A DNA stretch of 64,000 nucleotides from Pempheris klunzingeri. Its lineage: Eukaryota; Chordata; Actinopteri; Acropomatiformes; Pempheridae. Both the position numbers and the translations under genes were made by a program. The stretch's first letter is position 1; every line of letters begins with the position of its first letter. The stretch covers positions 5,363,501-5,427,500 of the forward strand of contig NC_092020.1 of assembly GCF_042242105.1 (NCBI RefSeq), written 5' to 3'. This document shows positions 433 to 63,944 of the stretch, piece after piece. The notes beneath the pieces were generated by a model. It saw only the letters and a list, made by a program, of their open reading frames with translations, ran no database searches and was not told the DNA's origin.

Positions 433-3400
433 GCAGTCAGAGAGTGCAGATAGCAGGAGAGCCATCCCGTGGAAGTGCCTCAGCAGGACGTATTAAGCAC
501 CAAGTGAATGGATCCCGACCCCCTCAGACTCCCACTCGCCCCTCTCTTATGGGCCCTCCCGTTACTCCTGCCTCTAGACTAACATGCAAGACGGTGGGAC
601 CCTCCAGGAGCCTAACAGTGCCCAGCATTCACACAGAGGAAAGTCCTGGGAGTACTCAAGGTGAGCCTAGAGAGGATTTGCATTGTTTTTAGTGATAGGA
701 TTTTCAGTCTGTATGGGCTATTAAGTAAAGGTATGCAGCATCAGTTTTATGCAGGCTGTTTTCCAGGGTCAGACGTCAGTGTTCATCATCTGGACATGGA
801 GGGGAGGGGCTTCTCTTTTAAATGGTGACCCACTTTAGGACTGGACTTTGTAAATCTCCCTCAGGGCTGATCTTGCTCTGATTTAACATATCTGCATCTG
901 CCATAGTACAGGAGCTTGGCATCTGGAAAACATTGTGACATTTTTCAGATTTCTTTATTTTCAGCTGTAGGAAAGTGTGAATGAGCTGAACTTTGAACGG
1001 TTCCAATGTGAACTTTGTCATGGCATTTTATTTTCTCACTGCTGTGTTGTATAAAGAGCAGAAGCGCCGTCAGACAGGGGGCTCTTTTCCTCTCAGCTTC
1101 TTCAACAGCATGCAGGTCTGTGATTGGCCGGGGGACCTATTTTCCAAACTGGGGACCCCCCTCCCCTGTGTGGTTGTCATGGCAACGGGTTCTATTCCAC
1201 TCTAGTTCACACACAGCCTAGAGGAAAGAGAGCAGACATACACTACAACTGATGCCGTCTGAGGTGCAGAAAAGGAGCAGTTTCACTATTTTTCTTTTCT
1301 CTTAAATTAAAACCAATGGCTGGTTACACTGGACTTCGGAGCTGCACTTGGACTGAATTTCCTGCTGATGTTTTCAACAATTCCTCTTTAATGGCACACG
1401 GCAGTGCAGCATCTAACTGTGATGTCACCCTCTTGACATGCCTGCTCATTGGATCCTATCGCTTTTGTATCATCCCTTTGTTAGCTGCATTTAATGGAAA
1501 AGATAGAAAGCTCTGGAGAAGTAAGTGAGACTTGAAGTTAAATCACAACTATGGTATCCACGGTGAAGTCTTAAATTTAAAGGACTTCTAGATATTTTAT
1601 TCAGTTTAGCTCAGACTACATAAACATCTGTTGAGCGTGCCAGATATTCGTTCAGCCATATTGTTTGTACATTAGGATCAATGTTTGCCACATCTGGCTA
1701 TGGTGAATTTTGTCAGATAACACCACCTTTTTGTTAATGTGATTAATTTTCATTTACCAGAAATGTCATATTTAATCACATTATTAAATTAATAAAGAAG
1801 AATATGATTTACTTTGTTGCACTTGAGGTTGTGCTTACTTGACTGTCAAACAAATCACTTGCAGTGACTGACTACATGAGGTTACTGGTGACTTACAGTA
1901 GTACTGTATTGAAATGGCTGAGAAATAACCAGCACATCTTTTCTTGGTCAACAGTTTCTGGAGGAGCTGCACATAAACCCACCCCATTAAAAACTGTTGT
2001 GCTGAAAGCTAGACTCATCACAACCCCTGGGAAAAACACTGGACCATGTGAGCTCTCATCTCTCTACACACACTCAAACGCATTTTTGCATTTCAGACTT
2101 GAATCTCTCTTTTGTGTCTCTCATTTTTATACCTTTTTGTTTGCAACCTTTCATTATTTTTTTCAGATAAAATGTTGATCAGATTTAAATCTCTGTCTCT
2201 CCAATTTGTAGAATAGACGTGAGTGAGACCACATTGATCTTTTTTCAAATCCTCGCATTTAAAGGAAATGGCCCTGTTAAAAGGTTTAAAGTGATTAAAT
2301 CCTCCCAAAGCCCTCAAGCACAGAAAAGCCATTATTACTTCTTAATGTTTATATTGTGTGCTAACCATATTTGATCAGGGTTCTTTGATGTTGATTGAAT
2401 TAAATTACTTCTACTACTATCTTTATTTTTTTCAGCTGAACAGTGTGATTGATCAAATCTGTTGAATTACTTGTAGCATAAAAGCTGTCTGCGCTTGTGG
2501 TCAGTTGCCAGTGTTCTGCTTCGTTATGGGTCAGATTAATTCCTGCCTTGTGTCTCACCTGGATCCTCTGCCCGTTACAGCTTTGGCCTCAACATGCAAA
2601 CCTGCCGTGGCCTCCAGCAAAGGAGCTTCCCATTCTACTGTCGGTAGAAGACTGGTTCGTCTAACGTCAAGCGGACCTGGTAAGAGTTTTCTCTCTTCAT
2701 TGTGTTGTCGACACAGCTTGTGCTTCTGATGACGTTGTATCCATTCAGTTTTTTATGTGTATTAGCTCATGTTAATCATGTTTAGTTTTCTTAATAGAGA
2801 CATGATACAAATACAACATGGGCATATTGTACTGACTACAGAGGGCACTGCCCTGTGCTGCATTATCTTTGATTTATGCTGAGGTTTAGTGGGTCTATTT
2901 ACATTTAACTGTAACTACGTCTGTTTTCAGTTGAAAACACTTATGAACTAGCATTCTAATGCTGCTCAGTGCTATATGGAGGTACTTGCGATATGTCAGA
3001 TTTGGTTTGTACTAATTTTGACCAGAGCATTCAAGTTCTCACATCCTTGGTGTTAATCAGTGTTTCCCCTCTGTTTCCTGTAAACGCAGTCATATTAAAG
3101 CTTTGCTCTCTGTTTTATTTGCTTTTGTTGCTCTCTTTTGCTCACACACAATGCTTAAGGCTTATTTTTGGGAGCTTCATGTGTCTTTCCGTCTTTCACA
3201 GTGTTGATACAGTCCGGTCAGGCATTATGTTCTGCAGAAACTAGATGGAAAGCATGCTGCGTTATAGAACCGTCAGTTAGTCAGTACAATGTTTTGAGTC
3301 TTGGACTGTTTACAGCTCAGCTCATCAGACAAACCCTTGCCACAAGAAGTCTGTCATCTCTTGCCATCCCACTGCTGGTGACACAGGGAAAGAGGGTAAA

Positions 3401-6400
3401 TGAGAGGAAGAGTGGGGGTGTTAGATTGAATTCTCATTGGCTGTAGTTATGGTGTTTGCTCCTCCCTCTCCTTTCTCTCCCACCCCACCCCCTCGGCTGT
3501 CTTCCTAGCATCCTGGCTGTGCTACAGCACCGCCATCATCAAGCTTTGAGATGCTGCTTTGCTCTGCTGTGAGTGATTCATATGTTTGGCGAATTGCTGA
3601 AGCCTGGCTTTACCAAGAGGATTAAGGGATTTTTACTTTTGTTCCTGCCCCTGTCACATCTATCAGGCTGTGCCACAAACCACTGGCTAGCCTTTACCCT
3701 TCTCTGCATCCTCCAGCCTTTCACAGCTGGGAATTAGACTTTGACTTGGGAGACCTGCCATGCTGAACTGGGTGCCTTCACTTTTTTCAAGGCTGTTTCA
3801 GCGGTGTGTCACCTACTACTGTTTTTTATTGTTTTATTTATTTTTGTGCCTGTCAGTGCTACAGTCACCTGAGGCATAATACACTGAGGCGCACCATGGC
3901 ATGTGGTTCATAGACAGCATCATAAATCTTTTTTTTTTTTTTTAAAGTAATTTTTGACTAAGAGTAGTGGCGGCCTCACTTTTTGTTTGAGAGATGTTAT
4001 GGTCTCCGAAGCTTTCCCTGTCGAACATCCACGTGCGCCTGACAGCCAAGGGTTTACTCCGAAACATTCAGCTGCTGTCAGGATGCAGGAAGAACACGGT
4101 GGTTTTCCAAGCAGGTCTGTTTCATTGTTAAATATTTCTGCTGGTATTGTTGAGGCTTTCTGTCTCTATGCTGTAATAATTAGACCAAACCTATCAGTGT
4201 TTGTCTCTCACGTAGACCTGTGCGCTTAGCTGTTTCTGCAATCTATTTTTAGGATGGCTGTTTACTAGCCAGGAGGTTCAGCTTTCATTTACCTACCTTG
4301 GTCCTCAAGACATGTGACCCTGGACAGAAGTATTTTCGGAGTATCTTCATGAATCTTGAATAAAGGGACAAAATTATTTGAATAAATAACAGTCATACTG
4401 ACGTCAGGATGGTTTACATTATTTTTGAGGCCACCTTCCATATAACTGTGTGTCAAATTGCTTCTTTCTTGCTCTCTTGCTCATTTGGACACCCACTACT
4501 CCTGTTTCATCCCAAGTTATACCAGGGTTATTTTGGTTCTCGGTCTCTTGGTTGAGGCCTGGGACGCTTGTTGTGATTGTTGAATTAGGACTGTGGGAAC
4601 ACAGTAGCGCCCTGTGGTTCCCACATCTAAAGCATTCCTCAGTTTTGGAAAGGTTCTGACCAAATATGGTAACTTAATTTTGCAGACTCAAATAACTCAG
4701 TGTGATTATTTCCTTATTAAACAAAGGCAGTCATTATTAATTTACATATCAGGTCATTATTCTACTACATACAAGGAGTCACATGAATCAGTTAGTGAAA
4801 ACATTTACTCGTTTATTTGGCAGTAGTGTTCAGTGAATGCTACACTGAGAATTATTGTCTTGTATTGTGTCGACCAAGTGCTATAACAAGTGCCTGATTG
4901 TGAAGGGTCTCATCAGTCATCGTGCTTTGTGCAATGGTGTGACATCTCCTTCCAGCAGCAAACCACTGTGCTGTGGAGTCCCCAAATCACTCAATACTTG
5001 ATGTTAAATTGGTACAAAATGATTCTTTGATCCTGGGAGGAAGTATGAAATAGAGGGTGACATGTGTCATCAACTCAGTGTTCAGACAGTTTGATGAAAA
5101 TAGCTGCAGGTCCTCTGTTGCCATGGAACAGCAGTGAAATGGAGAGACAGCTTATGAGCTTACATAAAGTCAAATTCATTTAGAAAGTGCAGATTATGGA
5201 AAACAAAAAACACATTACAGTTAAGAATAAATTCAAAATATGATAAAACTAAAGGTTAATAAATGCTAATAAAAGAAACGAATCTCTAGATGAAACAAAT
5301 GCAGGTTTTATTCATTGATTGGATCTGTGAATCATTTCCTGAATGTCAGCTTTTCTCAGGTCTGGAATGAGACCACCTCTTTAGACCATTTTGAATTATT
5401 TAAAAAGGTGAGAGCATGAATTTTTCAAATTCACCAGAAAGCTGTTGCATAATGTCCACTTCTGTCCATGGAAACAAGCACTAGATGATGGCTGGGGGGA
5501 AATAAACATGTATGGGAAGATTTCTTTCAGCCAGTTCCTCTTTATATGGACATGTTAAAAGTGGCACCAGTGAACATATGATCCCACTATTTGTTTAATC
5601 GTCCCAAGAGGTCAAGCGAACAGGAGTCAAAGAAATACATTTGTGAAAACAAAATAAACAACAGTCACATACTATTACTTAACAGAGTAATAACATGCTA
5701 TGATGTGTACAAGATGATGTGAGCTGTTTGCTTCTCTGCAGTAGCTCAACAGCCAGACTGTCATGGTGATTGGCTGTATTTTGTCTGTTTGTGGTATGTG
5801 TTGGTTGTGATGCAACTTAAGATGGCTTCTCTGTGTTCTTTGCACAACCAGCAGAGGGCATCCTAATGTAAAGAAACCCTTTTTAGATTTAGCAAAGTGC
5901 AGCATCATCAAAATGATTAAAAGCCTAAGTGTCTGTTTGGATCAAGGCTTTTCTGTTTTCATCCTTCTTATGCTTTACTGATGAACTGTACTTGCTACAC
6001 CTAGTGTAAAAGTCATTGTATGTAGATTTAGGGTGCAGTCAGCTGAAGTAGACAGTAAGCTGTTTTTCTGGTCTTGAATACTCTGTCCCATATTACAGTA
6101 TAAAAATTTCCCAAACAATATTAAAAGCATAAACTTGTGCTACGGTACAAGCTCAAGAATGTGTACGTCACGAAGTGAAAGCAGTAGAGGTGATCAAATG
6201 GATCTAAATGGTGTGCTAAGGAGTGTGCTTGCTTTGTCAGTTGTACCGTCCGTTCAGGTGCAGTTTAATGTTAATATTTTGTTTGTCTTAGAGGCTGCGT
6301 CGAACTGCTGAACTGTTTGCTTTGGCTGTAAAAAACTGAGAAGCCACAGAGAAACTAGTTTTGACATGAAGTGCACATCCGCATACAGAGCTGTGTAAAC

Positions 6401-9400
6401 TCCACTCAGTCTGTGGTATGAATGCAGAATACATTGTTATTCAGATGTGACTGATCTGGCCTTATTTATGGGGTCTTTGTTGTTCTTCCTTGACTCCGTA
6501 GTTGGGTGTTTGTTGTGATGGACTCAGTCTGTCAGCTTGGCCATTCCCAAGTGTTTTTATCAGCAGTATCATGTTGCCCTGATCAGGCCAGGGTCCAGAG
6601 AGCTGTCTGCTCTGCAGCTCCTGGATCAGCAGTCTACAGTCAGAGGGGAAGACACTTCGTCTCTTCACTGCCAGAAGAAACTTGGGTGTTTTATTTTGAA
6701 AGGCATCCAAGTAAATGCAGCATCTTGCATTATCTTATTTTGCTCAGAAAGCTGTCTGTATCCCACAGTTGCTGGTGTTATTCTAGGATGTTATGTTATT
6801 CTAAAATGATACTCTGCTACGTGCATCTAAATTTAACTTGAATATGCTCCAGCTTTTGTGGTTCATAAAGGGCATGATTACATGTTCAACACTTCATGGG
6901 ATGGAGTTGTGCATAGATCGTGTTACGAGAGCACACTTAGGTGAATTGAACTACAGCTTTAAAGTAGATTTTCATTGGTTCCAAATTCACTTGTGCAACT
7001 ATATCGATATTTGGTTTTTGCTCAGTAATTTACTCTAACAGCTGTTATCTAAAAGAGCAGACAGAGCTGAGAGAGTATCCCCCACAGGCCTGTAGTGGTA
7101 CAGTATATTCCACTCACTGGCATTCCCCATGTCTCAGGCTATTCTCACTGCTGTTACGTAACACTCTCTACAGTCTCCTCATAGACAAACTGTGAGAAAC
7201 AATTTTTGCACAGGTGTCCAATATCACCAATAAGTCTTTCTCCACGGTAACACTCAGTGTTAGCGACTTTGTTTGGTGTTCCTCTACTCCGGCTCTACTC
7301 TGTGTTGTAGCAGGGTAAAGTATGTAGTAGGACTGACGTAAGGATTGTATGGTGGTGATGTATTTATAAAGCTGATGTAAATCAAAACTACAGTAGCACG
7401 GCCTCGCTAAAATAAGTTGTCCTTGGTGACCAATGCCTGCAGAGCACTATATTGAATTAGGATACGGAAAACTAATTGTATTTAGAGGATCCATTTTTAT
7501 GTCTGAGCTGACAGAGGAGCAGCACTGGCACTCATCAGACTGGCTGATTGGACAGACCAGTTCCGGACGGCAGAAATATCCAGGGCTGTGACACTGGAAC
7601 TTGCTGTGACCCTGACATGAGTGTGTAGGGTGGGTGGTACTGCCATCAGACCTGCTGCAGCGGCTATGGAGGGGGGTATGATGATGATCAACGTTGTCAC
7701 GACACTCAACACATGTTCTTTCACAGTGGACAAGAACAAACCCAAGGCCAGCTCCCGCCAGCAACACCCTCAGCAGCAAGCATCCCAACCACACCAGAGT
7801 AACAGACCTCCGGATGTGGTACCAGCGAGTGTCGCCAAGGCTGGGAGAAAGGACCCGAGCATCCAGCAGCTCAGAGGACTCCTGGCAGCCAGTAACTGCA
7901 GATTTGAGGCAGTCGCCATCGTCTTGCAGCAAACTTTGGCTGAGGTATGAACATTTTTATTTATGATGGGAGGTTAATGTTTTAGATTTTATGTTTATTA
8001 CAACATAGACTCTTCAACATTTCCTAATGAATGCAACAGGAGGAAATGCAGTTGGTACTGCAGTTTGTAGCCCAAGCAACCTTTATTCAGAAACAATATA
8101 GAGAGTTGAGTGTTGCTTTAACATACAAATTAAAAACAACCTTACAGTGGAAAAGCACAGGAATGCCAACAGAGCAAAGATGTTCAGAGTAAAAGACGGA
8201 TATTCTTGAGGTCTGAATTTATCTTATGATTGATCACCTTGCAGTATCACTACATGTGCTGTAACATCAAGTCCTGTTGATAGAAGGCAAACCCACTGGT
8301 ATTTCTATTTACGGCAGCAGCAACAGGAATGATTGTAAGGGAGATACTTGGAAACTGTCCAACATGTAACAGCCCTGTTGTTGTCATCCACTGAACAACT
8401 GAAGCAATCCTGGATCAAAGAGAAAGTCTGCTCAATTGAAAATTTCATCGTAATTGCAGCACGATTTGCATGTTCTTGTAAGTCTGAACTTATTGCAACT
8501 ATTATCTCAAGTCTCACTGCAAGTAGATTCATAGGTCATTCAGGTAAGCAAGCATGACCCTGAGAGCCTTTTTAAAATATGGATGTTTAAGCTTGCTGTT
8601 TGTTTTTGGATCTGTTTTAATAGTGGTGCCATGTGATTGGCTTCCAGGAACTGGATGCCCCAAGGGATTATTCTTCCCACAGTGCAGTACACACAGGCTT
8701 ATCCTATCAGCTACCCTCCGCCCGACCCCAGGCATCATACTCCCTCCTTTAGTCGTTGTCAGAGCAAAATTCTGATATGGAGCCTGGGCTGTATTAAATA
8801 CATTTACATCAGAAGTCTTACAATCTAATGTGAGTGAATCATACGATTACATTAAATCTGCCAAATGCAGTTAGTAAAGATGTATATCTGTGTTTTCCTG
8901 TAAACCTATAGGAAAAAACGAGATACCCTGTTGGAGTACATAAAATGTCAGTCTATTTCAGTCCCTCTAGTTAACTTTAGAAATGTCCCTGTCAAATATT
9001 TTCACACCATATGTGTTGATTGAGTGAAACAACTGGAATATACCATCCAAATATAAATTGATCTCCCATTAGATTGTATAACCCTGTCTTCACTTCATAG
9101 TATCTGATTTATGAAAGGTCAAAAGGTTGAGTGGTGCAGTCCTTAGTGTGTCACTGCCTGGACGTCTTAATCAGGTGACTTTGTCTTCTTCTTTTAATTT
9201 CTTAGGTTTTAGTCATTTTCAAAAAGAATAGTTACAGTTCTTGTTTTGAATTTACAGATTTAAGTGAGAAACCACAACACACTGTTTTACGTTTGTATAG
9301 AATATAAACTTATAGTTCAGTGCTGTGAATTTAATACCTGTGAGCAGTAGCCTGATGTCCAGATGGGATTAATGACATAAGTGACACTTGATCTTGTCCT

Positions 9401-12400
9401 CCACTCCTCATTACTGTTGTCAGACATTAGCAGCATTCAGCCAGCACACTGAAATAGTGGAGACAATAATTGTGGACACCTTGTTGAACCAAGGTAAATT
9501 TGTTTCCAGATATATTTTCTGCTCAGTAAATTTCCCCTGCCAAACCTCCTGTTTGTGTCAACATATGACAGTCTATTGAGTTGTCGTCTTTTTTCCTTTC
9601 TTACTTTGTGTTTGTAAGTCAGTTTTATGTCATTGTCAGATGAGGTCTTATTCAGTGGCACAAGGGGCAAACATCACTTCTGCCAGGAATTTCCTCTAGA
9701 GGCCGCTGGGACCTCGTCATCATTTCTCTGCATCATGGCTCCACCAGACCTTATCTGTTGTTGAGGGTCTGGGTGCTGCCAAATCCATTAAACTCACATA
9801 TTCATGTATGAGATTGTAAAAACACAAATCTTCATTCAGCCTAGCATCCGTCCTAGTAGATTCAGAGGACATCAGCACGATGCAGAGAAAGAACACATTA
9901 GTGACCCTATTTCAAACTGTACTGTAGCTGTGGTGCTTCAGCTTAGCGGTGCGTACCATCACACACTATTAAGCAGTGTTTGACTGAGGGATCATATACT
10001 TGTTGCTGCTGTAGTGATTCCTTCTGGTTGGTTGAGGCACCTGGGTAGGACAGGTGGGTTCTGGTGTTAATCTCAATAAAACGTCACATGGTCTTGGTGA
10101 GATTTGTTGCCGCCATGTAAAAAAGCGGCTGGTGACTTCATCAATGCGCTAAAAAGTTCTTAAACAGGATGTTGTTTCCAATCAGTGTGCTATTTAATCT
10201 ATTACCACGTTGTTTTATCGTTTTTTTTTCCTGTCTGAGTCTTGTCTCCTCACACAATTTCTTAGTTTCTAACTTGAAGCATGTGGCCAAGAAACAAATG
10301 TGTGAAAGCTCTCTGCAGCTGAGACCTATTTCAGAAAATTAAATTGCTTTTCTCAGTTGTAACATAAAAAGCCACTCATACATTTATTTCCTTTGGCCTA
10401 GATTGCAGCAACTCCCTTCAGTCCTGCCTTGCTCCAGAGTTTGACACCAGACAGATCCCTCGTGGCAGTGCTCTGGATAGTTGCAGTTGTGACAGTTCAT
10501 ATCAATCCAATTTTAGCCTCAGTGAGCTTCAGTGAGTGCTGTTGTTTCTTAACTCCTGCTTCCAGTTGCAGTCGAGTGTCTAAATTATTTTGACATTTGC
10601 TCTTCAGATGCTCAGGAGTCATCTTGGGAACGTTCTTGCCTGTTGTGACTTGAGTGAACATTCCAGGTTTTCCAATGCTTTTCCAATTATATAAGCTGTC
10701 ATAGAAAACAAAGCTAGAGAAAAATTAGTATCAGGCGATGGTCCTTGTAATTTGCTGGTATTTAAGGCACAGCATGTGATCTGCAGTCACTGACATTTGA
10801 CTCATATCCCTGTGTTTGAGTGGTCGGGTTGTGAAATAGATTGCATCAACGGTGTTAAAAACATAACATGTTTGTTCCTCTCTAATAGAAAGGTGGCTGC
10901 CTCACTGGGCCAGCTTTAACTACACCATGTCCAGCTGCTTTTCACCCCAAATAATGCCCACATTATCTTAAACACACTACACTGTTATTGACAAAACATC
11001 AATTCAATACACAAAAATAACAGATAATATCAGGTGTATTCGTGGACTAGTCTGTTTGCATGCAATGTACAGTGGAATCTAGTGGCCACCCATCAGACCC
11101 AGAATAGGAGGCAGGTCCTTACCATCATGGTGTGAGAATGTCCCAGCTGTTGACTTGATATGGTTATGAACAGCATCCAAACACTCGACAAGAACCGAGC
11201 ACTGTTTCTTATCATCTGTTTGGATGGAGTGTGTAAGCACTGGACCTGGTTTGACATACCCTCTCTCAATGAGAACACGTTTGATTTCAGTGTAGGAATG
11301 CAAGCACGCTCCCAGATAACCAGAGAAATGATTTACAATCTCTCTTCGCTTCACTTTCTTTCTGATTGTCACAATATTTCCAGGAAATTGTAATTTGATC
11401 TAAAGCTATTAGTTATTGATCTTAGTCTAGCATCAAGTGTTATCCTACACCTGACATGGTATCATATTGATACACTGGGGACATGTCTTCTCTTTGCACC
11501 CAGTTAGATGTCCCTTAGAGTTACATGGGCTGGATATATAAAGTTAAAATGCCAAAAACATGCACAGCCTAACAAGGACATCTGTGATTACAATTTTTAG
11601 AAATGTAAAGGTCTTATGCAAAGAAATTTTAGTATAGGGCTGCATGGTAGCTGTTATTTTCCACAATTTTAATTGACAGATACTCTCCCCAAAAAAGCAT
11701 GCAGCATGTTTTCATGAAGGAATGTTTGAATCTAAAGCCACCAAGAAGAGAGTGCCACAATTTTGTGTGTGTGTGAGACAGTGGAGATGGGTAAATACAG
11801 CCTGTCATCAGTGGCAATTACTGGTTAAGAGATGCTGTTTCTAATACAGTCTCTGATTATCAAGGCGTTTGCTTTGTCAACAGGTGACATATCTTTTTCT
11901 TCAGTTCTGTACATTTACTGTAACGACCTGTGCTCATACAGAAGCTGGAAATGTGATCTGTGTCAGCATTATGTCATCTTGTGATGGAGAGATTGTACCC
12001 ATGAAGCCCCTAGCCACACAGCAGACTGTAAGGTAATGGTGCAGAGGGGTGAGGGGATGATTTAATGTAGGTTTGGGTGAGTAGTGGGGGATGGTGGTAA
12101 TGAAGCCTCTCCATGTATCCCCTGGGAAGGTCACTGCACAGCACAAGTCCTGCTCCATCAGCCTGATGTCAGACAGCTCTGTGCAATTTATCTGTTTGCT
12201 CCTTTCCGGCTGCCTTTAGTGCTGCCTTAAAGTGACCTCACCTCACTGTGAGGAGGCTGCTCTTATGCACACTGTAGCCTGCCCCTTTTTAGGTGTAATA
12301 CGGTAATGCAGTCTGCAGTCACTCACCACAGCCAGTGAAGCGGCTTTTTCAGTCCTGCCTCAGATGTAGTCAGAGCAGTCTGGGAGGAGGTGTGTGGAGG

Positions 12401-15400
12401 TGGTTCGTCCACCTGGACCACTGTTTGTCCTGGAGCTCAGGGTCGTCTCCCTAGCTGGGGTGGGGCTCCAGCACCTACGCCTCAGGCTGAGGCTGGATCA
12501 TGGGCTGTTCGGGCAGCAGAGCGTGCCTTGGTGCTCCCTGCGCTGCAGAGAAGGTAACTGGCTTCTACATTGTTCTACACTGCAGTGAGGAATAGATGCA
12601 GTTCTGGGGTACAGCAGGACAGGATGGACTATATTTGCTTTTGTAAACCGATCAGTGAAGTGATATTTGGCTCGTCTTTCTTAGCCTAGGTTCATGATTG
12701 AATTATGCAAGCTGGGTGATGTTGTGTTTTGTGTGTCAAGTCGTTAATGTGAATCAGCAAAGTAAGACAAAGGTATTGAATGAGAGGTAAACAGTTTTTG
12801 GATCATCTATGCGTCAGTTTGAAGTCTGGAGAAGCACTGCAGCTACAGTGCACCCTCCTCTTTACTGCAAAACTGAGTCAGAAAGGGAGAAGTAAAGGAG
12901 TTAGGCTGACTGAACACGAGAGACGTCAAGTTTCCTTAATCCCCCTCCCCTCATCCCTGGTAATGTTTTTCTTTTGTTAGCTGCTGCTGCTGTGGTGTCA
13001 GTGTGTTTACATTTAGCCTTCAAACACAGTGTCTTGGAAGGAAGACCCGTATTCATTATGTGTCAGGGTGTTTCCCTCACAGAACCTCCCTCCTTTTAAA
13101 TTCATAATGCTGGAAACTGTGCTCATTTGTGGTCTCGCCTGTGATGATGCTTTCTGTGTCAAATCTTCTTCAGGAGCATGTGTGTAACTGTTTACTTTTT
13201 TTTATTTCTCTCTCTCTCTGCAGCGTGATGAAGCTACAAAGCATTGCAGGGAGCTGTCCCAGGAGCTGGTCAACCTTCAGGGAGAGCTGGGTAAGTTAGG
13301 TCACCTTGGTCACACACACCAGCTCTGTTTTTAAAGTTGTTATCACCAAAGTACACACTCCTGGTACTGGGTCTGCTTTTAGTTTACATGACAAGTCAGG
13401 AAACCTTTGGGATCATGTTGGTACAGATAATTAGGACAATACAGTTTTCCTGTTTTGGCTATTGTATGTTTTTGTTATTTTTTTTCCCCATTAGAAGTAT
13501 TTAATTTTTTTTTCTTATTATCTATTCTATCCATTTATCATTAATTTTGATGTTTATGGCATATGGTAGACATTATTCTATATTAGTGAATCACCCAGTG
13601 TGTGAATTCCTCCGGACTGACAGTCATGCAGTTTACATTGTTTATCAAATAAATTAATCTGTATTTAATAATGAAATAGGTCAGTGCTGTGCCTTGAAGT
13701 GGTTTGTGCCGTGATGGGTTATCATCTCTCATTTGATGGAACTGCCATGTCCCAAAATTGTTTTAAAGAATGAAATGTTATCATGTCTGATCAGAGAACG
13801 TCCCCTGTGGCTCCTCCTCCACTCGTTAATTGCTTTGTCCTCCCCTGTAAATCAGATAGCTGTTTGTAAAGGCATGTGTGTGTCAAAGTGTTGCATAGTA
13901 GAGTGGTGGCAGCTCATTCCCCAGGGAGTGGCAGGCTGACCTCTGACCCCACACAGGACGGGCTCCCAGTGCTGGAATGCCACAGCACCTGAGGCCTTGT
14001 GAAGGCTTGGGGACAACGGCCCATGTTTCATGTCCAGCCGGAGCGCTGTCACACTGAATAGCCTTACAGGCACAGGCACATGCACGCTCAGACACACCAG
14101 CTTTCATCTCTCTCACTTAAAGCAGCAGTGGTGTTTTGGCTCCTCCCTCGCAGCCTCGGGACTTCCACATGACTGCTCTTATATGCTGAGCGCTGTTACA
14201 TCTGCGCTTTAACACATTCTTCACTTCAGGGAGGCCGTGAGACCTGCGCTGAACTCAGCAGCATCTTTTTGTATTATGTGTAGTAAGTTTGCTTTTAGTT
14301 TATTTCCTCCTTCGGCTGTGTCCCTGCCTGCTTTTCCAATGATCTCAGTCCTCATACAGCAATAAATTACAGTCTTGGGCCACAGCCAAAATTTTGATAC
14401 AACCACACCCCCCTCCCCGTTATCATTCCTCGCACGGAAAATTCTGTCTGCCTTTATTCAGCATCTGCATTATCTGTGACACTTCCAAACCTGCTGACGG
14501 TGGGCCAAAATACAGCTAACTTTAGATTAACTGGGCCCTCCTCCCCTGTAAGAGGCATGAGGTGTTTGTAAGGGGTGGATTTGGACTAGAAAGGCTCATG
14601 TGACCAGATCTGTTGCATATAGTCGCGTAGTGCTGGGCTCTGTTTGTTGAGTTGTACGGACCAAAGCCTGATAGATAGTCGCTATGTCAGCTTGGCCTCT
14701 GTTCCTGGATCAGCTGCCGTTATTCCACTCTGTAAGTGAATCTTGGGGCTCACACACTGCAGTGCTGTTCCTTCACACTGTAGGTCAGTACTTAGCTGCA
14801 CGAAATCACAGACTCTTCATGATTTAAATTGCAACAATGCACAGTGCCAACTCGTAGTTGGATCAAATGCAGCATGTGTCCATCACATCTAACAAGGGGA
14901 ATCTTCATATGTGTGAAAGATGCTAAAAAGAGCTGTTCATGAGTTCTTTCACTATTACAACATTATATTGTGGTCACCACATCTGTTGTAGAACGCCCAC
15001 CACTGAAGTCCCACTGTTTCCAGTTGTGGTCTATTGTCATTCCCTGTATGTGAGACCAAACCTTTTAAAGAAAATCACCTGCTTAAAGGAACGACCGACA
15101 TTCTAGATGTGCACAGCTGTCTTTCTTCCCCAACACCATCAGTGACCTCACTGGTGAGTTGAAGTTCTCATCGGCTGGTAACTCTGGCTGCTGAGTGTCA
15201 ACAGTGTTTGTGCTCAAGCACTTAAACTGGAGACAGGTTATGGAGTTGGTCCCTGTCACCCACTCCAGAGCCGATATAAACACTTGGCCAAGGAAAGAGT
15301 TGGAAAATACTTAACAGAATAAAAACAAAACCCACCAATTTCTCCAACTTACAAATGGCAAATCACCAGCTGTGGAAGAGTCTGTTTTAAGAATCAGTTA

Positions 15401-18400
15401 CCTGTGTTACCGATTTGAAGATATTGTAAAATAAGACTTGTTACCGTATTCCCATCTGCCTATAAATATCTGCAGTGTAGTTGGCACACGCAGTCAAGTG
15501 CAAGAGGAACCTCCCCTACAAAGTCATTTTTTCCATTCCTTTTTGGAGCACATGTAGTGTCACATTTACTCCAAGGGAGGCCTTTGCTGAACAGAGATTC
15601 CTCAACAGATACCGTATTTATTACACAAGCAGCTACTCACAGAATTCCACATCTGCCCTATTCCCATGAATGACGGTCTGCACATGCAGCACACAGTCAC
15701 TGAACACCATGCAAATGTCCTGTCACCCTTTCAGCAGCTTTCTGTTTCTTCCTTCCAGTTTGCTCCATCGGTTCATCTGAACGCTTGGAGAAGGAGAAGG
15801 ATGAGCTGCGCGTCGCTCTGGAGGACGCCCTGCAGACGCTGCAGGAGCAGCACCAGAAGGACCTGGCCGAGCTGGAGCAGAGACTACAGGCCTTCTACCA
15901 GGCCGAGTGGGACAAGGTCCACCTCACCTACCAGGAGGAGGCTGACAAGTGCAAGACTCTGATGGAACAGCAGGTTTACTTTCATGCATAAACTCTTCTA
16001 TTATTGAATTACTTTACTTTGAATTGATTTGATAAAGGTTCAGACACCAGTGCGGGGCGGGTGTTCTGATGCCATATATCTTTAAAATGTTTGTTTCTGT
16101 GCTTCAGAAGGGAATGACTGGAAACATCTTAATGCAAAACAGCACTCAGTGATGGCCTAAGATCAGTAATGCTGTGGTTTTAAATCAAGATTATCCTGTG
16201 TCCTCTTTAAAGATGGGAGAGCTTAAAGCCAATCATGAAGCCATGAAGCTGGAACTAGAGAACAGCCATACAGAGCAGCTGCAGTGTGTTAAACAGCAGT
16301 ATGAGATGTCACTGGAAGGTGAGTGACTGGACCAAATTATTGAGACTACATCTTTGTAGAGCTACATTTTAAGGGTTTGTTTGAAGCTGACTCAAGATAA
16401 GAAAGCCCTGGGTGATATTCTACCTCAGTTAACAGATGCATGTATGATTTTCTTTTTTTTCACTCCACCATAACGTGACATTGTGATTAGCCTTGATCTT
16501 TGTTGTGCAGTTTCCCTGAAATATTTCTGATGTCATAATATCCTTTTAAACTCTTCAGAGCTCAGCAAGCTCCACAGTCAGGAGCTGCAGTCTTTGGAGA
16601 AAACTTTGAAAGATTCGGAAGCTGCTCTATCTGTAGGTTTGACTTTTTCAAACCTTTTGCAAAGAAATTGTTACATGTAAGTCATGGATTGATGAACCAG
16701 GGTATGAAAACATCCCCCCAAGTGACTAGATTGTGTTGTGTTCATCTACAGGATCAGATTGAAGAGCTGACTGTGGAGAACAATGCCCTAATTGAGAAGC
16801 TCACTGCAGAGGAGAACAGGAGAAAAGAGCTGGCCGATAAGAGTCAGGTAGTCTTATCTGTGTGCTCCACTTTAGAAACACCTCATGACTCCAGTGTTGC
16901 TTGCCTCTAAGCATAAAAGACCACAAGCCAACGATTACCAGAAAGATACGTTTTCAGCCAAAACAAAAAATCAATACACACTTTTTTTTAAAAGACCTCA
17001 TTCTGACCATGAAATATCCTCTAGCATGTGAAACGGTGTGAACAGGAGTGAGTTAAACTCGACTGAGTCGACTACAGCACTGCACAGAGTGTAGATTTAA
17101 ATTTTTCTAGAGTGCTGTTACAGTAGTGAGGCTGCCACTCCTCATCAGTATTAAGTGGCTGCCACATGTACTCTGCATGCTGCCCTGGCACAGTAGAGTA
17201 ATTAAGGTAACTACCTCACATCAGCTATTAATAGATTAGTGATAGGAACAGCATCAGCTCAACAGCTCAGTGTTACATCATTAAAAGTTTAAAAAGGAGC
17301 ACAAAGCATTATTTGCATGTTTGTCATTTTTCTGTAATTGTGTGTGACAACAACATTTCATTGTCCCTGTGAGCCCGCAGCAGCTAACATTTTGTACGTG
17401 ATGCATGGCGCCCTCTGTTGTGTGCTTCTGGATTTATAGCTACATGACATTTACAAGGCCGGCTGCTCTCATTTTCAAAGTCTTCAACAGTCTCTGAGCA
17501 TCCTGGCACTAATTTATTTGTCCCTGCAGAAGGACTCCCACACCCTGTATCTGGAGCAGGAGCTAGAAAGCCTCAAAGTGGTGCTGGATATCAAAAACAA
17601 GCAGCTGCACCAGCAGGAGAAGAAGCTGATGGAGATCGACAAGCTGGTGAGACCGGAGGCAGAGGAAAATGATAGCCGGGCAACAAGACGATGCTGCGGA
17701 CATTAACAACACATGGAGCACTCATCAATCATCATTTCATCATTTTGTATTTTTTTCTTTTCTTTCCAGAAAGAGAAAAATGTGAAGTTGGATGAGAGCC
17801 ATAAAAAGGTCCAGCAGGAGAATGAGGACCTCAAAGCCCGCATGGATAGACATGCTGCACTGTCGAGGTAAGAGTTCACCGTATGAGCTCATGTAGAGTG
17901 ATGGAAACCAGGCTGAAGCCCATAAGCACCTGTCTCAGCTCAGACTGCTTTACGACTCTCTGAACTGCATTATTATCTGTTAATCATGTTCCTTTCAGAA
18001 GATGAGTGTACGTACACCTGCTGTTTAGCACTGGGCGCTAAACATGAAACTATATGATTGTAATCTGTTCTTAAAAAATCATCTTCAGTAGGAACTGATG
18101 TTACATAGCCAGTGTGATCCTTTATCCTTTCCAAAATAACTCTGCAATCATAATTACCGTTTAGATGTTTATTTCTTTGGGTCGTTGCCTAAAGCAGTCT
18201 GACACCAGATAAACCACATAACTCATATATTCTGTATTCTGCAGGTGTCTGTAAAGCATTTCTAACCTGCCTGTCGTGTCCATGTATTACAGACAGCTGT
18301 CGACAGAGCAGGCAGCGCTGCAGGAGTCCCTTCAGAAGGAGTCCAAGGTGAACAAACGTTTGTCGATGGAGAACGAGGAGCTGATTTGGAAGCTCCACAA

Positions 18401-18521
18401 TGGAGACCTGAGTAGCCCCCGCAAGGCGTCCCCCAACTCCACCTCCCCCTCCCACTCCTTCAGCCTCCAATCACCCCGCAGCTCCGGCCTGTGCTCCAGC
18501 ACTCCCGTCTCACCCAGATAA
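433..18521 (+). CDS. mtus1: Microtubule-associated scaffold protein 1 (MTUS1/ATIP), 3' part, 11 shared exons
   Basis: MTUS1/ATIP proteins bind microtubules and interact with the angiotensin AT2 receptor; the coiled-coil C-terminus mediates dimerisation. Exons by frame and splice sites: 433-660, 2581-2679, 7727-7944, 13224-13290, 15759-15973, 16213-16318, 16559-16632, 16752-16847, 17530-17646, 17770-17867, 18293-18521 (TAA at 18519). All phases join, giving about 514 residues. The first two exons are Ser/Pro/Thr-rich and basic, as in the microtubule-binding part of long ATIP3. From 7727 on the protein is heptad-rich coiled coil with the family signatures [31 protein letters not shown] and [22 protein letters not shown], ending in a Ser/Pro tail SPR. 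The N-terminal exons of the long isoform lie left of the window. The donor after 15973 (GTTTAC) is weak. The family identity is very secure; which teleost paralogue (a or b) is unknown. Confidence 0.95.
1316..1520 (+). CDS. Candidate alternative first exon of mtus1 with a hydrophobic segment
   Basis: An ATG at 1316 opens a 68-codon frame that runs without a stop into a strong donor, GTAAGTGA, at 1521. The exon would end in phase 1, exactly what the acceptors at 2581 and 7727 need. The peptide contains a membrane-like stretch, [20 protein letters not shown]. Upstream lie a TATAAA at 1050-1055, an inverted CCAAT box (GATTGG) near 1120 and GC-richer DNA, consistent with a promoter. MTUS1 is known to use several promoters with different first exons, but I cannot match this peptide to a remembered isoform, so this is inference. 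It could be an unexpressed open frame. Confidence 0.45.
3430..3568 (+). promoter_or_regulatory. Possible ATIP1 promoter and noncoding leader exon
   Basis: An inverted CCAAT box (ATTGG, about 3437) is followed by a C/T-rich stretch (3460-3505) and by a plausible donor GTGAGT at 3569. A leader exon ending at 3568 could splice to the T-tract acceptor just before the ATIP1 start exon at 3994. Only the motifs are seen; the transcript start and splice are inferred. Confidence 0.3.
3994..4114 (+). CDS. mtus1: ATIP1-type alternative first coding exon of mtus1
   Basis: Forty codons plus one base beginning at ATG 3994. The peptide starts [20 protein letters not shown] and continues with [10 protein letters not shown] and NTVVFQA. 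This matches the remembered N-terminus of mammalian ATIP1 (MLLSPKFSLSTIHIRLTAKG...) almost residue for residue. It ends in phase 1; joining to 7727 gives a Val at the junction, as in the human isoform. The resulting protein would be about 446 residues, against 436 for human ATIP1. The donor (CAG|GTCTGT) is weak. A T-rich tract ending in AAAG at about 3928-3946 could be an acceptor for an upstream noncoding leader exon. The exon is too short to show as an ordinary long ORF. Confidence 0.88.
4115..7726 (+). other. mtus1 intron between ATIP1 first exon and shared exon at 7727
   Basis: About 3.6 kb of AT-leaning intron. Open frames here are short, lack splice-compatible conserved peptides and look like chance. 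No convincing exon, RNA gene or bounded repeat was seen. Confidence 0.6.
7945..12380 (+). other. Large mtus1 intron upstream of the 12500 candidate exon
   Basis: About 4.4 kb of intron. I see only short chance open frames. No exon with conserved peptide and matching splice sites, and no transposon with clear ends, was recognised. Confidence 0.55.
12500..12553 (+). CDS. Candidate alternative first exon of mtus1 encoding an N-myristoylation-type start
   Basis: ATG at 12500 sits in a good initiation context (A at -3, G at +4). It encodes 18 residues, [18 protein letters not shown], and then meets a GTAACT donor at 12554. It ends in phase 0, the phase required by the next mtus1 acceptor at 13224 (Arg-Asp-Glu...). 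Gly2 with Ser6 fits the N-myristoyltransferase pattern, and Cys3, Cys9 and Cys14 could be palmitoylated. The locally GC-rich 12390-12550 would serve as promoter or 5' UTR. The product would be about 351 residues, a membrane-anchored coiled-coil form. This is inferred from sequence alone. Confidence 0.5.
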
Positions 18522-19475
18522 CGATGGGCACCTGCTTCCACGAAGCAGACCCCCTCTTCTGAGTTGTCCCTCTGGAATTAAGAGCCATGTTTGTTTCCTC
18601 TTTGCTTAGCAACAGAACAGCTCCTTCGGGATTGGATGAACTCTGACGCTTCCTGTACAGAGACGCTACAGACTGTAAAACAGGAAAAAAGTTGCACAGA
18701 AGCACTTAAAAAAAAAAAGCAAGGTCACCTTGTTCTTTGCCTTTCACGTCTGATAGTATGGATGGGAAAAAGGAAATCTCAGGACTTCTATGTAATGATA
18801 CAGTAATTTTGTTACTTGTTGCCAGAGGGTTCCTGAAGCTCAACGCACGCACACGTCTACAGTACATGCAGTAGAAAATACACGCATGCATGCATATGTC
18901 ATCAGATACAGCTCTGCTGTGAGAGCGAGGGCTTCTTTGTGTCTCTGGAGACCACAGCCATGGAAAGTCTGAATGCAGAATAGTTATGAATACAGAAGAC
19001 ACTGTCCCTGCTCAGAGTGCATTTGATTTGAAATGGGGAGTTCCTTCTGTCACCATCTCTCACAGCTACCTGGCACCAGTGGCAAACAGTCATATTCCTG
19101 ACATCCTGCTGGTAGTCAGTTCACCAGAGCTGTGCAGGTCTCAGTCTATGTTCAGAATTTCTTTAAGATTACTTTTCTTTAAAATATCGTTTGTGGCTTC
19201 AAACATGTTCTGATTTTCACGTTTGTTTGTTTGACCATGGGACCAATTAAGTCTTTTGCATGTGTTTGAGTCTTATTAATCACCCCTCACTGAACCCTCC
19301 CAGTGCAGCTTTAAAGTCGGGGTCTTTGCAAAGAGTTGACCAGAAAAAGCTTTGCTTGTACTTGTCGGAGACACTGCCTCTTGGAAATGTCTTTTTGCGT
19401 GGAATTGGTGTTATCAGTGTGTTGGCCCTGATTGAAATATGCAATTAATAAAGTCATGTATTAAATCTGGTGTAT
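18522..19475 (+). other. mtus1: mtus1 3' UTR with polyadenylation signal
   Basis: Noncoding tail after the TAA at 18519-18521. An AATAAA at 19447-19452 is the likely polyadenylation signal, placing the transcript end near 19470. The UTR is about 950 bases. Confidence 0.65.
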
Positions 19476-41234: not shown

Positions 41235-44200
41235 ATGGAGCACATCCGACTCCCAAAGGTAACGGAGGGCCTGACTGCAGTGATTAGCTACAGTTTCCGC
41301 ACTGTACCACCAGTGTCGTGTCATCACAAGCCGCCCAGTGCGCTAACCATGGCTGCAGAGCCTCCACACACACATTAAACACGTAGGCAGCCGGGGTCCT
41401 CCTGCTGCTGCCCTCAGCCATCACATCAGACGGCAGGGTGTGTTAGTGTGTGTGTGTGTGTGTGTCAGAGCTGCTGTATGAGTGGATGACCACATGTGAG
41501 GATGAGGCTGATTGTTTCTTCCTCCTCCAGGTGGAGAGTGTCAGGCTGCTTGACAGAGTCTCCCCCAGAAGAAGCAGGGTGGGCACCCTCTATCTGACAG
41601 CCACTCACACCATCTTTGTTGACAACGATGCAGGAGTGCGCAATGAAACATGGGTAGGCAGCAAATCAGTGCATTAGTGAAGCAGAGATCAAGTACAGAA
41701 TATGTTTAGACATGTGTCTTGGTGAATAAGGCCTCAAATAGAGTGCTAACCACGATGTGGGACACAGGCTGTTGATAATACATGAGTTTGTCTTTGAGGA
41801 GATTCTGTGGTCACTGTGCATTCATGCACTATGGTGCACAATGTGCAATATAAAACAGGCCTTTCATCGGTCTTACCAGGTGCTTCACAGTCTGGTGTGC
41901 AGCGTGGAGAAACGGGCCTCGTCCGCCTCAGGATGTCCTCTAGTCATTCACTGCAAGAACTTCCAGGTTCTTCATTTTGTCATACCTCGAGAGCAGGAGT
42001 GCCATGATGTTCACCTGTCCCTGCAGCGCCTCTCCCAGCCAGGTGAGCTGTCTTATCGTGTCAGCAAAGGATCAGTTCTGTGTTGTTAGTGCTCAGAACC
42101 GGACCGTTACATCAGAAGTTCAATATTATCGCCCACTATGGGCTTTTTTTTTCCTTTTCCTTTCTTCGCTGTAAAAAACGTAATCAGACATATTCAGATA
42201 TTAGTATATGTATCTATACATACACCCACACATTTACATGTATACATATACATATGTCACTATGGGCTTTTTACAGCTGCATCGATTTCTGTGTTGGATT
42301 TCTGCGTGAGTATAAAATATCCAGTATCAATCATTTGATGGATCCTTGTTAATCATTTAACAAAGGTATCTTCAAAAAATAATACCAGCACATACGTTGC
42401 TAACATGTTTTCTCCCAATTATTTGTATGAGTCAGCCTCTGGTTTCAATGTTTTTCTTTCCTTTTAAACACTTTGTTCTGTTTCACTCACACAAATTGGA
42501 GGTTTTGCACACCAAACGTTAGCTGTGAGCCAGTGTTGTGCCTTGCAGAGAGTCATGAGGAGCTGTACTGCTTCTCCTATAAGCCCAACGTTGGTGAGGA
42601 GGAGAGACGGCAGGAATGGGACTTGTTGGACCTCAAGGCTGATTACAGCAGAATGGGACTCCCAAACTCCCTGTGGAAATTCTCCCCCGTCAACCGATAC
42701 TACAAGGTCAGTGAGCCGAACCCTATGACCACTCGAACCGTTTTATCCTAATATGGGCATGGCAGCAGCTCAGACTTTAGTTATGTTATTTTTTTCTCAA
42801 AGGTGAGTGACACTTACCCCGCTGAGCTGTTCGTGCCTGAGTCCGCCACACCACCGGTCATAGTGGGCAGCTCCAAGTTCAGAAGTAGAGGGAGGTTTCC
42901 TACTCTGTCGTACTACTCCAAAGAAAACCATGTAAGTTGACTGCATACATTTATTTTCCACCTGCTTCCTTTGACAACTCGTGTTAATTCAAGGGACAGG
43001 AGGTGTTGGTAACTCAGATATGAACAGGGATCATAGCAACGCTGACACAATCAGGCTCTCTGGCTGATGCCTGTTAATGGAAAGCCTATCAAAGCCAATA
43101 TTTGTCAGAAGACTGTAGATAAGGGATGATTTATTTAGATTTAAAATGTCACGATGGCAATACTTTCATTTTTTCTTGCTTTGCTTGGCTGGTTTTTGTT
43201 GTCACGCTGGTCAGTCATCTTCTGCACCGCCCTCCTTCTTCAAGCAGCCAAAGATTTCACAGAGAATTCAAGCAAGAAAGTGACTTTTGAAATCAAACTC
43301 AAGTGCCCATAGTAAACAAAGTCACTCCTGTTTAGTTATTGATACCGCATGCAGATAAAATATTGTTGATTTGAAACCAGATTTTTTTTAACAATCTTTT
43401 GAAGTTTACAAACAACTGAAATTGAAATTGACATAGAAACTGAGCCTGAAATAAAATAATCATGTTCTGACGGCACCAGAGAAGCACCACATTCTTGATT
43501 TGGTTTAATTTACTCTGATTGTGTTCAGGTGATCACGTGGGTTAAAGGTTTTCTTCTTCTATTTTAGTTGTTAGTGATTTTTTAAAAATGTCTTGCTTGT
43601 TCCATGGCAACAAGCAGATCCTCATCATGTTTTGATCAGAGGAGTCGACATTCCTCAGAGACATGGAATAGATAGATAGAAAGAAAATAGGGAACACATC
43701 CAAAAGTACAAGATTCAGTCAACAATAAAACAGAATGGAAAGAGAACCATTCACAGGAGAGTTTTAGCCATGAAAAGTAACCAGGCACTTTGTCAAGGTC
43801 CCATGAGGTTAAGTCCCTTCTGTCATTAAATCAAAGGATGAACTGTTTTCTGTGTCCGAAGCCTGAACATCCATAATCTGTTCCATTAATCCTTGACTGG
43901 ACAGTTGGGAGTGCTTTATGTGTGTGAGGTCAGCTTCCCAGGGTTGAGGGTCCAACAAAGGAGCCCCACTCTGGGTCATGAGCCAGAAGGGAGAATCACA
44001 CAACGGCCTCTGGCTCTTTCCCTCGTGACCACTAAACGGAGATTTGATAAACTGTGTGGTTGATTAATTCAAATTGAACATGCAAGGAAAGAAAAAGTAC
44101 TGTGAATTTGTATTCACCCCGATTCTCACATGTTGGATTTGTTTTGTCCTTGATGCTATCCAAAGTAATAATTCACTTACAGTGAACTGTCAGATGAGTA

Positions 44201-60059: not shown

Positions 60060-63000
60060 AGCGGGGTCCAGACCAGGGACCATGGTCCCCACTGAGGACT
60101 GTTTCTGGGCTTTAAAGAAAATAGTCCTAAATCCTGTAATCCTGTGATCTGAATTATTCATTTAAAACCGTGAGGTGGTTTTTCCTGCATCATTAAACCT
60201 ACAGGGCTAATAAACCACTAGGGGCTGACTGCAGTTGTACAGACTCTTTTGTTTCCACCTGGCTCTACTATCTTAACGTGCTCTTCATGTTTCTTTACTC
60301 ACCTCTTGTTGGCGGGGTTGGAGCCCGTGGGCGACGAGGGCTGCTCGGGGTCCAGATTCACCAGACAGGTTGGGAACGAGCAACCGTCCCCTGAACTGGA
60401 AAACCAGCAGAAAACGCAGTAAAATGAACAGCTTGATGTTTAAATAACTAGCTGTTATAAATCAGGTCAATGCAGCTGGTATTATGAACATCAGTATATT
60501 TAATTGTTATGTATTCTCTTTCATGTGCGTGGACATGATGGCTATCAGAGTTATAAATGCTAAAGCACAGTGTAAATACGCTGTACAGTAACCAGCTGTT
60601 CAAAGTGATTGAACAAAATGAGCTTCTGTGTATAATTACAGCTGAATTTGTTGTTCACAGCAGCAACTTTTGTTCACACGTTCAAAAATGTAAAGTTTGG
60701 GAAGTTAATGTTTGAATAATGAACCCAGAGTTATATATTTATGATATTTTCCAGTATGAATGACTAATGCTGCAAAGCTGGAGCTTCTGCATTAATTCAC
60801 AGTGTTGATGTTGTTTACTGAATCTAATTCTTCCTCGTCTCCGCTGGGTGTTTTTCCTCTTTTGAAACGTTTAGTTTCAAACTAAGTGACAGAGGGCTCT
60901 AATCCCTGAGTTTAGCACTGACTGACTTCTTTCAGCACTTCTCTGAGATCCTGAGTGAGATTATCTGAACCACAGAAGTATTCTCTGAGGGGAATGTGTG
61001 CCATTGCTGTGCACATTGACGCAGATTTTCTAATTAATATGAACACTCATTGCCTCACATAATTATAGATGCAGTGGGAGTAAATTGGGGCTTTAAATCA
61101 CTTAATATTAGGTTTTAATACTATAGGATATGTATCCTAAAAACTGTACTTGTCCAGTTGATCAGTGTGCGATAATAACCAAACAATTCACACATTCTCT
61201 CCCTCAGATTTCTTCAGCATAACTTTTTATTCATATATTTTTTGACCATTTTATGCTTTTATTAGATAGAAGGGGGTGAAAGGATGCTGTTGTCATCATG
61301 CTTAGACACATTATAACCAGGTTTCAGCCAACAACACCAATCTAAGACACTAGAAAACCCAAATCTCTTCTTATTAGTTGGACTTGATGCTGCAGAGTCG
61401 TGGTTGTAAAAGCAGAGCCTGAAGTTTTTGACCTGATTGTCCTTCAGTCTAGACTCAAAGCTGCAGGCCATTGTGGCTCCTAAACTGTCAAACAACCTGC
61501 CAGGGGAAGTAATGAATCATTTCTAAACGCACAGACTTGCTTTATTGGATTTGTTTGTCTAGTTTGCCCTCCTTGAGTCCAATGTTTCATGTCATTTTAT
61601 TTGATAGGTGATTTTCTTCTGATTTGCCTTCGGTTAAAGCCCATGGGACCTTACCTGGAGAAGATGGGAATGGGCCAGTATTTCACCTCATCACCAAAGA
61701 CCTGGTGGAAGTTCTTACTGAAGCCCAGACTGAAGCCGTTCTTATCCGTGCCGTGGCGAAACACTGGAGCGCGCACAGCCTCTGAGAGGACACACACACG
61801 GGGGGGGGGGGTTAGTCTGACATGAGGATGAATAAATACAGCACTCCCTCTCAGCCTTTACACAAACCATCACTCAGACTATTAACAGGGGCTCATTCAG
61901 ACAGCAGATCAACACGAACGGCTCCTGCTGAATGGAACGACTCTCAATGAAAGTGTCTTTGTCGTACAGGAAAAGCAGATCTTGGGCCACTCTGGCCATG
62001 TGTGACTTCTCTTCCTAGCAGTGTCTGTTACTAAGCTGCTTACTGCCCTGAGCCTTGTGTCTTTGCATTACACTGTAACATACTCCTCTGGATAATCCAC
62101 TCTCCTCGACACACAGACAAAGTGTGCCACTGTGCACGCATAATGAGAAAGAGCTCCGTCTGATAACAGCCAAGAGAGGCTCACCAAATCACCGCACTGA
62201 TGAGGATGCTGACTGACGATGGGAAAAATGCAATGAAACATCCTTCATCATTAGCGCAGAGACGACGCTGTGCAAACTGTGGGCACACTGAGAGCTGATA
62301 CTGTGTAACTACTGCATCCGCAAACAGAACAAACACACACATAGGTGCCGCTTACCCAGTGTGGACCTGTTCTTGCAGACCAGCCAGCAGTGGTAGATGA
62401 AGAGCGAAGCCAGGCTGACTGAAAACATGGAGGCCGAGAAGAAGAGGAACAGGATGTGGAACTTGGCCTGAGTGTCCGGGAGGCCGTTCTGAGGGGGAAA
62501 CAACGACCAAGCAATCAAATAAATGCACAGAAACACTACGAGAAGACGCTACGACTCTCTGAGACTGAGTGGGATCTGAGAGATTTCTACTCAGGTCTTG
62601 TAGGGGAGCTCATTAAACTGTCTCTATGTCAGTGCCACTAACTAGCTGGTTGGCTCATACCAGGTATTCTCTCAGGCGGAAATGTGCTCTACCTCCAGCC
62701 TTGTGAAAAAAAAACAAATCAAAACACCACATATTTAACTCAGACTTCAATGGAGATATTTTGTGCAACCCAACAGTTTTGAGGAGGAAAAAAATATGTT
62801 CATGTTGTGGTAAAAATACTTACCAACCAAAATTTAATGAAGTATTGAAGATCTGTAGCAGTTATAAAAAGGCAGTAGAGTAGCGAATATGCCAAGAACA
62901 GCATGAAGTACTTGTAGTTGGAGAATCCTACACAGTTGTTCACCCTGCAGCGACAGTGACAGGATGTTAGTGTGGGAAAATGTTGTCATTAGTGCATGTT

Positions 63001-63944
63001 AAGATCTTCTTTTTTTTTTTTTTTAAATGAACCAGGACTTGGGAAAATGATTTAAAGCAGCTGAGCAGGAGAAGAGTAAACAGTGGGAATGAGATGGCGG
63101 GCGAGTTGCTACAATAAAATGTGACTGCAGCAATATGTGGCAGTTCTTTTCCTTCGTGTAGATAGATAGAAAAACATATGCATGGAAATTTGACAAGAAA
63201 GCGTTCAACCAGCTGCTTTGTTTTGTGTGAATTAGAGGGACATGGCACAGTACGGCACAGCACAGTACAGTACAGCACAGCACAGCACAGTACAGCACAG
63301 CACAGTACAGTACAGTACAGTACAGTACAGTACAGTACAGTACAGCACAGTACAGTACAGTACAGCACAGTACAGTACAGTACAGTACAGCACAGTACAA
63401 TATTGTATGTTAGTTTTTGGCTCAGGACACGTTCATGACAGGCATTTTTGGAGAGCATTACAGAAAACAACTCCTGGATCCTGTTGCTTTATACTCCAGT
63501 GGCAAATTACATTATGACTTAACCCTATATTCATATTTTCTTATATTTCTCCCTGGTCTGAACACCAGACGTGATGAGGTACATGATTGCAGAGAGAGCA
63601 GACAAACGGTCACGTTTAACAAGAAGATAATAATGTCAGTAAAAATGGAACCGACTGGAGTTAAATTAGATTTGTCTCCCTCTGCTGCCAAAATCAGCAT
63701 CTGGCATGATGAGAGATCATAATGTCAAACAGTGTCCAGCAAACAAGCTCTTTGCTCTTCCGTGTGATGTGTGTTTACGAAGCCTGTTAGCTAAAGAGAC
63801 AAGAAGCACCCTTTACCATGAAACCGTGAAAACATGGAAGGGACACGATACGATCACAAGGATGAAACACTTGTTGAAAATCCAGTTTAATGAAAGAGCG
63901 TCAGTACATACCAGGGGCAGTGGTGATCCATCTTCAGGATGCAT
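59750..63944 (-). CDS. zdhhc2: Palmitoyltransferase ZDHHC2, 3' seven coding exons
   Basis: ZDHHC2 is a four-pass membrane S-acyltransferase of plasma membrane and recycling endosomes (substrates include PSD-95). Exons on the minus strand: 63944-63912, 62944-62824, 62488-62356, 61781-61655, 60395-60303, 60022-59907, 59790-59750 (TAA). The 33-base exon carries [10 protein letters not shown] with Trp split across the next junction, so the catalytic DHHC Cys is present. Next come [12 protein letters not shown], two membrane segments ([16 protein letters not shown] and [19 protein letters not shown]), then [18 protein letters not shown]. The cytosolic tail keeps the dileucine signal SQSRLL and [11 protein letters not shown], like the human endocytic signals. 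The 5' exons, including the first membrane spans and most of the cysteine-rich domain, lie beyond the right edge. Confidence 0.95.
59798..59822 (-). repeat. (TTC)n tract in the last zdhhc2 intron
   Basis: AAG repeats on the plus strand are a TTC polypyrimidine tract in the transcript, just before the last acceptor. The intron is only 116 bases. Confidence 0.85.
60027..60057 (-). repeat. (TG)n microsatellite just upstream of a zdhhc2 acceptor
   Basis: AC repeat on the plus strand, TG on the transcribed sense strand, ending in TCCAG at the acceptor of the 60022 exon. Confidence 0.9.
63246..63400. repeat. Pentanucleotide (YACAG)n minisatellite in a zdhhc2 intron
   Basis: About 31 copies of a 5-base unit that alternates between TACAG and CACAG in an irregular order. 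The unit lacks stop codons in several frames on both strands, which explains the apparently long open frames there. Confidence 0.95.

Follow-up and report, generated by a model that had tools for sequence, protein, structure and literature searches.

The question raised by this locus is whether an intron of mtus1 holds a further first exon, from which a short, lipid-anchored form of MTUS1 could be made. An exon of this kind, opening with ATG at 12500, was proposed in a first-pass annotation of the window, i.e., the whole 64 kb stretch of DNA analysed here. The gene was identified as mtus1 by tblastn with human ATIP1 as the query (436 residues), which matched a start exon at 3994, a shared exon at 7727 and, between 13224 and 18518, the exons of the coiled-coil part; exon ends were placed by hand. 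The features needed for the argument are the following.

1316..1520, forward strand: ATIP4-like first coding exon that includes a hydrophobic stretch, found by eye; it resembles the published description of ATIP4.
2581-2679: intervening mtus1 exon, placed by eye.
3994..4114, forward strand: ATIP1-type first coding exon, 74% identity over 38 residues with the human ATIP1 start.
7727..7944, forward strand: common exon, absent from the proposed short isoform; it corresponds to the point where the 395 residues common to human ATIP1, ATIP3 and ATIP4 begin.
12300..12499, forward strand: presumed 5' UTR and core promoter, the promoter role being putative.
12500..12553, forward strand: candidate first coding exon, 18 codons (54 bases) ending in phase 0, recognised by frame, start context and splice phase.
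12554..12559, forward strand: candidate 5' splice site AAG/GTAACT, with C in place of G at +5; donor score 4.49.
13224..13290, forward strand: common mtus1 exon of 22 residues, in which the coiled-coil part begins, placed by tblastn and splice sites.
15759-15973, 16213-16318, 16559-16632, 16752-16847, 17530-17646, 17770-17867 and 18293-18521, forward strand: seven further common mtus1 exons, placed by tblastn and splice sites.

The last of these exons ends before or inside the stop codon TAA at 18520-18522; it found no relative among prokaryote genome contigs and viral contigs, as expected. An in-frame stop lies just 5' of the ATIP1-type first exon, and a TATA-like box was seen at 1050, upstream of the ATIP4-like exon. 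The sole Pfam match to a 135-residue ATIP1-type stretch was ATG16 (E 4.5), below the cut-off. Between 21546 and 50361 of the window, single open frames matched in Pfam an Ig-like domain (reverse strand), an amino-acid permease (reverse strand) and a myotubularin-like phosphatase (forward strand). These fit pdgfrl, slc7a2 and mtmr7 as neighbours of mtus1, in agreement with the croaker locus, where the available text lists mtmr7, slc7a2 and pdgfrl together with mtus1a (PMC12066304). The genome is taken to be that of a fish on the strength of this gene order and of the first-pass annotation. Two overlapping open frames with repeated residues at about 62967-63488 on the reverse strand probably reflect no more than a simple repeat in the DNA.

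The candidate exon was considered for its anatomy. ATG 12500 stands in a strong start context, with A at -3 and G at +4, and an in-frame TGA precedes it by 12 bases, at 12488. From 12201 to the start there are three other ATGs (12265, 12306 and 12364); none is in frame, and all are ended within 13 codons. The earlier claim that ATG 12500 opens 18 codons, running to a phase 0 donor which suits the exon at 13224, was confirmed when coordinates and phases were checked: the acceptor of that exon is pyrimidine-rich, tatttctctctctctctgcag/CGTGAT, and its phase 0 matches that of the donor at 12554. Joined to the eight downstream mtus1 exons (13224 to 18521), the candidate gives a frame of 351 residues with no internal stops, i.e., a predicted product of about 40.2 kDa, and the predicted spliced product can be aligned along its whole length with the coiled-coil part of human MTUS1. 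By matrix score, the candidate donor beats 5 of the 11 other mtus1 donors scored and stays below the remaining 6; it is within the range of the gene's own donors. Two other readings of the frame were rejected. As a cassette exon it would carry the TGA at 12488 in frame, which would halt translation from upstream, and as a retained intron the unspliced frame ends after 31 residues. The 40-residue start gave no match in Pfam and one meaningless match in PDB (E 0.49).

In the stretch 12400-12553 the G+C content is 64%; 0.5% of equally long pieces of the intron are this rich in G+C or richer. One Inr-like site, TCAGTCC, was found at 12349 within the presumed promoter region (12300-12499). No TATA box was found in that region, no CpG island at 12300-12560 (observed/expected 0.35 vs. 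a window average of 0.37), and no tandem repeats from 7900 to 13300. The lack of a TATA box and of a CpG island counts against the exon being real, as does the donor without G at +5.

Dual acylation follows a rule: a Met-Gly start, a permissive residue 3, Ser or Thr at position 6, no Pro at position 7, and Cys near the start. Gly2, Ser6 and Arg7 combined with Cys3 make up the dual-acylation start of the Src-family and G-alpha type. The candidate exon encodes the N terminus MGCSGSR with Cys3, Cys9 and Cys14, which fits this pattern in a scripted match to the rule. The dual-lipidation pattern named in the first-pass annotation, Gly2 and Ser6 with Cys residues nearby, is there, made up of Gly2, Cys3, Ser6, Arg7, Cys9 and Cys14. 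An N terminus with these residues would most naturally be read as a site of myristoylation plus palmitoylation. In openly licensed PMC papers, taken without their supplements, no report of a lipid anchor on MTUS1 (KIAA1288) was found, which is weak evidence of absence.

Two approaches were used to judge how easily such an exon arises by chance. Firstly, the 11 stretches between mtus1 exons, comprising 15,561 bases, were filtered for ATGs with a purine at -3 and G at +4 that are followed by 8 or more open codons and an in-phase donor of at least 3. Only two starts passed, at 6901 and 12500. A control speaks against the candidate, as neither of the two recognised mtus1 start exons passed: the ATIP1-type exon at 3994 fails because of the base at +4 and a donor of 1.6, and the ATIP4-like exon at 1316 because of the base at -3. 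The filter therefore shows rarity, and not what real start exons look like. The start at 6901-6940 on the forward strand has a strong context, 13 residues and a fair donor, in phase 1 to exon 7727. Secondly, expected numbers for both strands (128 kb) were obtained from two models, one of third order for the window and one of second order for the G+C-rich kilobase. One MGCxxS/T start with a donor of at least 3 was observed, while 0.043 and 0.064 were expected from the two models, respectively; on the strand of the candidate's own intron the expectation is about 0.002-0.003. With the same donor limit, the myristoyl pattern plus a Cys anywhere among residues 1-20 was observed once (expected 0.043 and 0.448), and a looser myristoyl pattern twice, at 12500 and 42653 (expected 0.128 and 0.875); the looser pattern is not telling on its own. 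A stricter scan of both strands returned four starts, 12500 included, whose donors score at least as high as that of 12500. The start at 42653, on the forward strand, runs for 18 residues to a donor of 4.42 and is probably chance. The exon anatomy and dual-lipidation pattern at 12500 are rarer than simple chance models predict, with figures that are guides and not P values, since all cut-offs were fixed after exon 12500 was known.

These figures bear on the alternative of chance, in which an unused ATG and a GT in a G+C-rich stretch of intron merely mimic a start exon. We give it a considerable probability, although below even. All 64 kb were scanned for oddities, so rare patterns are to be expected somewhere, and the G+C-rich model gives 0.448 starts of the myristoyl plus Cys type per 128 kb and 0.875 looser ones, the latter set against two observed; both figures speak for chance. 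The same holds for C at +5 of the donor and for the start at 42653, another one of the myristoyl type with a fair donor and no known meaning. Against chance stands the coincidence at one place of start context, upstream stop, phase, donor, G+C peak and MGCxxS, as well as the promoter usage of the human counterpart gene. The available text of PMC2706840 gives human MTUS1 the promoters P1, P1', P2 (variant 4) and P3 (variant 5), of which the internal ones make short forms; with several promoters in the gene, one more would be in character.

Other starts of the gene show where the candidate would fit. According to the accessible part of PMC3566609, ATIP1, ATIP3 and ATIP4 share 395 C-terminal residues, and ATIP4 has 36 residues followed by 24 hydrophobic ones, being brain-specific and predicted to be transmembrane. 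The exon at 1316-1520 likewise encodes some 35 residues and then a hydrophobic stretch, and this mtus1 gene appears from this to keep the brain-type, predicted transmembrane ATIP4 form described in human. The candidate is located 3' of the 7727 exon and would be spliced to 13224; without the 7727 exon its product would not contain the full 395-residue shared part, and would be none of the named forms ATIP1, ATIP3 and ATIP4. The first-pass reading, partly supported overall, is to be corrected in that the ATIP4-like exon is a further start of the gene. In mouse heart, RACE recovered only variant 4 (ATIP1/ATBP50), as given in the accessible text of PMC12071853. Both primers printed there (R1 and R2) translate to GRQKNP and VVIQH, motifs of the human exon matching 7727. 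Since the primers appear to sit in this exon, a form entering at the next exon would be missed, and the RACE result is weak evidence against a short form that would lack the very exon targeted.

A possible human counterpart was found among forms that carry no ATIP name. The table in PMC3994487, citing UniProt, as far as available, lists MTUS1 isoform 4 (Q9ULD2) with 342 residues and 38 kDa, and isoform 7 with 415 residues, both without one. In human ATIP1, with 436 residues here as in that table, 324 residues are left from the junction matching 13224 (REEALKQ), so that isoform 4 would have 342 - 324 = 18 private residues, the length encoded by exon 12500-12553. Residue 95 of human ATIP1 is Gly and not Met, so the 342-residue isoform is not a case of simple internal initiation. 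Its mass is a poor fit, as 324 residues plus the 18 encoded by the 12500 exon are expected to give about 39.6 kDa vs. the 38 kDa listed. Isoform 7 would need about 20 private residues at the junction matching exon 7727. Quite possibly, then, the short isoform is already annotated in human as isoform 4, and the lipid anchor may be the new part. Calling the isoform hidden was perhaps too strong, since the 342-residue human form in PMC3994487 may be its ortholog, while the exon anatomy behind that claim holds.

For the exon count the open 351-residue frame, the donor within range, the start context, the upstream stop, the G+C peak and the rarity in the filter, and likewise the rarity of MGCxxS/T starts, the internal promoters in human, the unnamed isoforms of 342 and 415 residues and the 18-residue remainder. 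We consider that exon 12500-12553 is probably a real alternative first exon of mtus1, and put the chance that it is real and also has a lipidated N terminus at slightly better than even. A real exon with an unlipidated N terminus, whose short product might, e.g., pair with longer forms of MTUS1 as a decoy in the cytosol, is improbable: the exon anatomy does not depend on how the lipid motif is read, and having a motif does not prove modification, but the exon has the Src-family and G-alpha start, whereas the other in-phase strong start, at 6901, is without the dual-acylation motif.

The explanation we prefer is a real first exon with a lipidated N terminus. An internal promoter of its own would drive the 12500 exon as an alternative first exon, and splicing of 12553 to 13224 would give the 351-residue protein, composed of an 18-residue lipid-anchor peptide and the coiled-coil half. 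Once Met1 is removed, N-myristoylation would take place at Gly2, favoured by Ser6 and Arg7, and palmitoylation at Cys3, perhaps at Cys9 and Cys14 too. The dimerising coiled coil would thereby be held on the plasma membrane or Golgi. Such a form would be without the microtubule-binding region of ATIP3, the hydrophobic segment of ATIP4 and the start of ATIP1, and is predicted to keep most of the coiled-coil region. In the available text of PMC8147298, ATIP3 binds microtubules via its central basic region, and the coiled-coil region of MTUS1 is said to mediate homo- and hetero-dimerisation. As the most likely mechanism we infer that the lipid-anchored coiled coil would pair, at membranes, with further forms of MTUS1 or with partners. 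More speculatively, and with a probability of roughly one in three, a dual-lipidated mini-isoform consisting of the coiled-coil dimerisation half alone, old enough for fish and mammals to share it (in human as the 342-residue isoform), could draw microtubule-bound ATIP3 to membranes or sequester it there.

Research on MTUS1 deals with it as a tumour suppressor, and also in heart and brain. In the accessible parts of the literature, its products are placed on microtubules, Golgi, plasma membrane (not mitochondria) or nucleus, and the forms named are ATIP1-4 only. A lipid-anchored short form, if true, would offer a simple molecular reason for the membrane pool of MTUS1, and would join AT2-receptor-bound ATIP1 and ATIP4, predicted to be transmembrane, as another form directed to membranes.

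The candidate may be set beside three known forms. Human MTUS1 isoform 4 would, if it uses the same junction, also have 18 private N-terminal residues, the two being compared by length and mass; it differs in that its given mass of 38 kDa is below that of the model, and the count of 324 residues refers to the ATIP1 sequence used as the query. ATIP1, made from promoter P3 (exon 8) in human, is likewise a short form with an internal promoter and the same coiled-coil half, but begins with 41 residues of its own, without Gly2 or an MGC motif, and includes the exon matching 7727. ATIP4, made from promoter P2 (exon 5), likewise has a first exon by which, as far as the text of PMC3566609 is available, the coiled-coil half is presumably placed on a membrane; its predicted anchor, however, is a hydrophobic segment and not fatty acids, and its likely counterpart in the window is the separate exon at 1316-1520.
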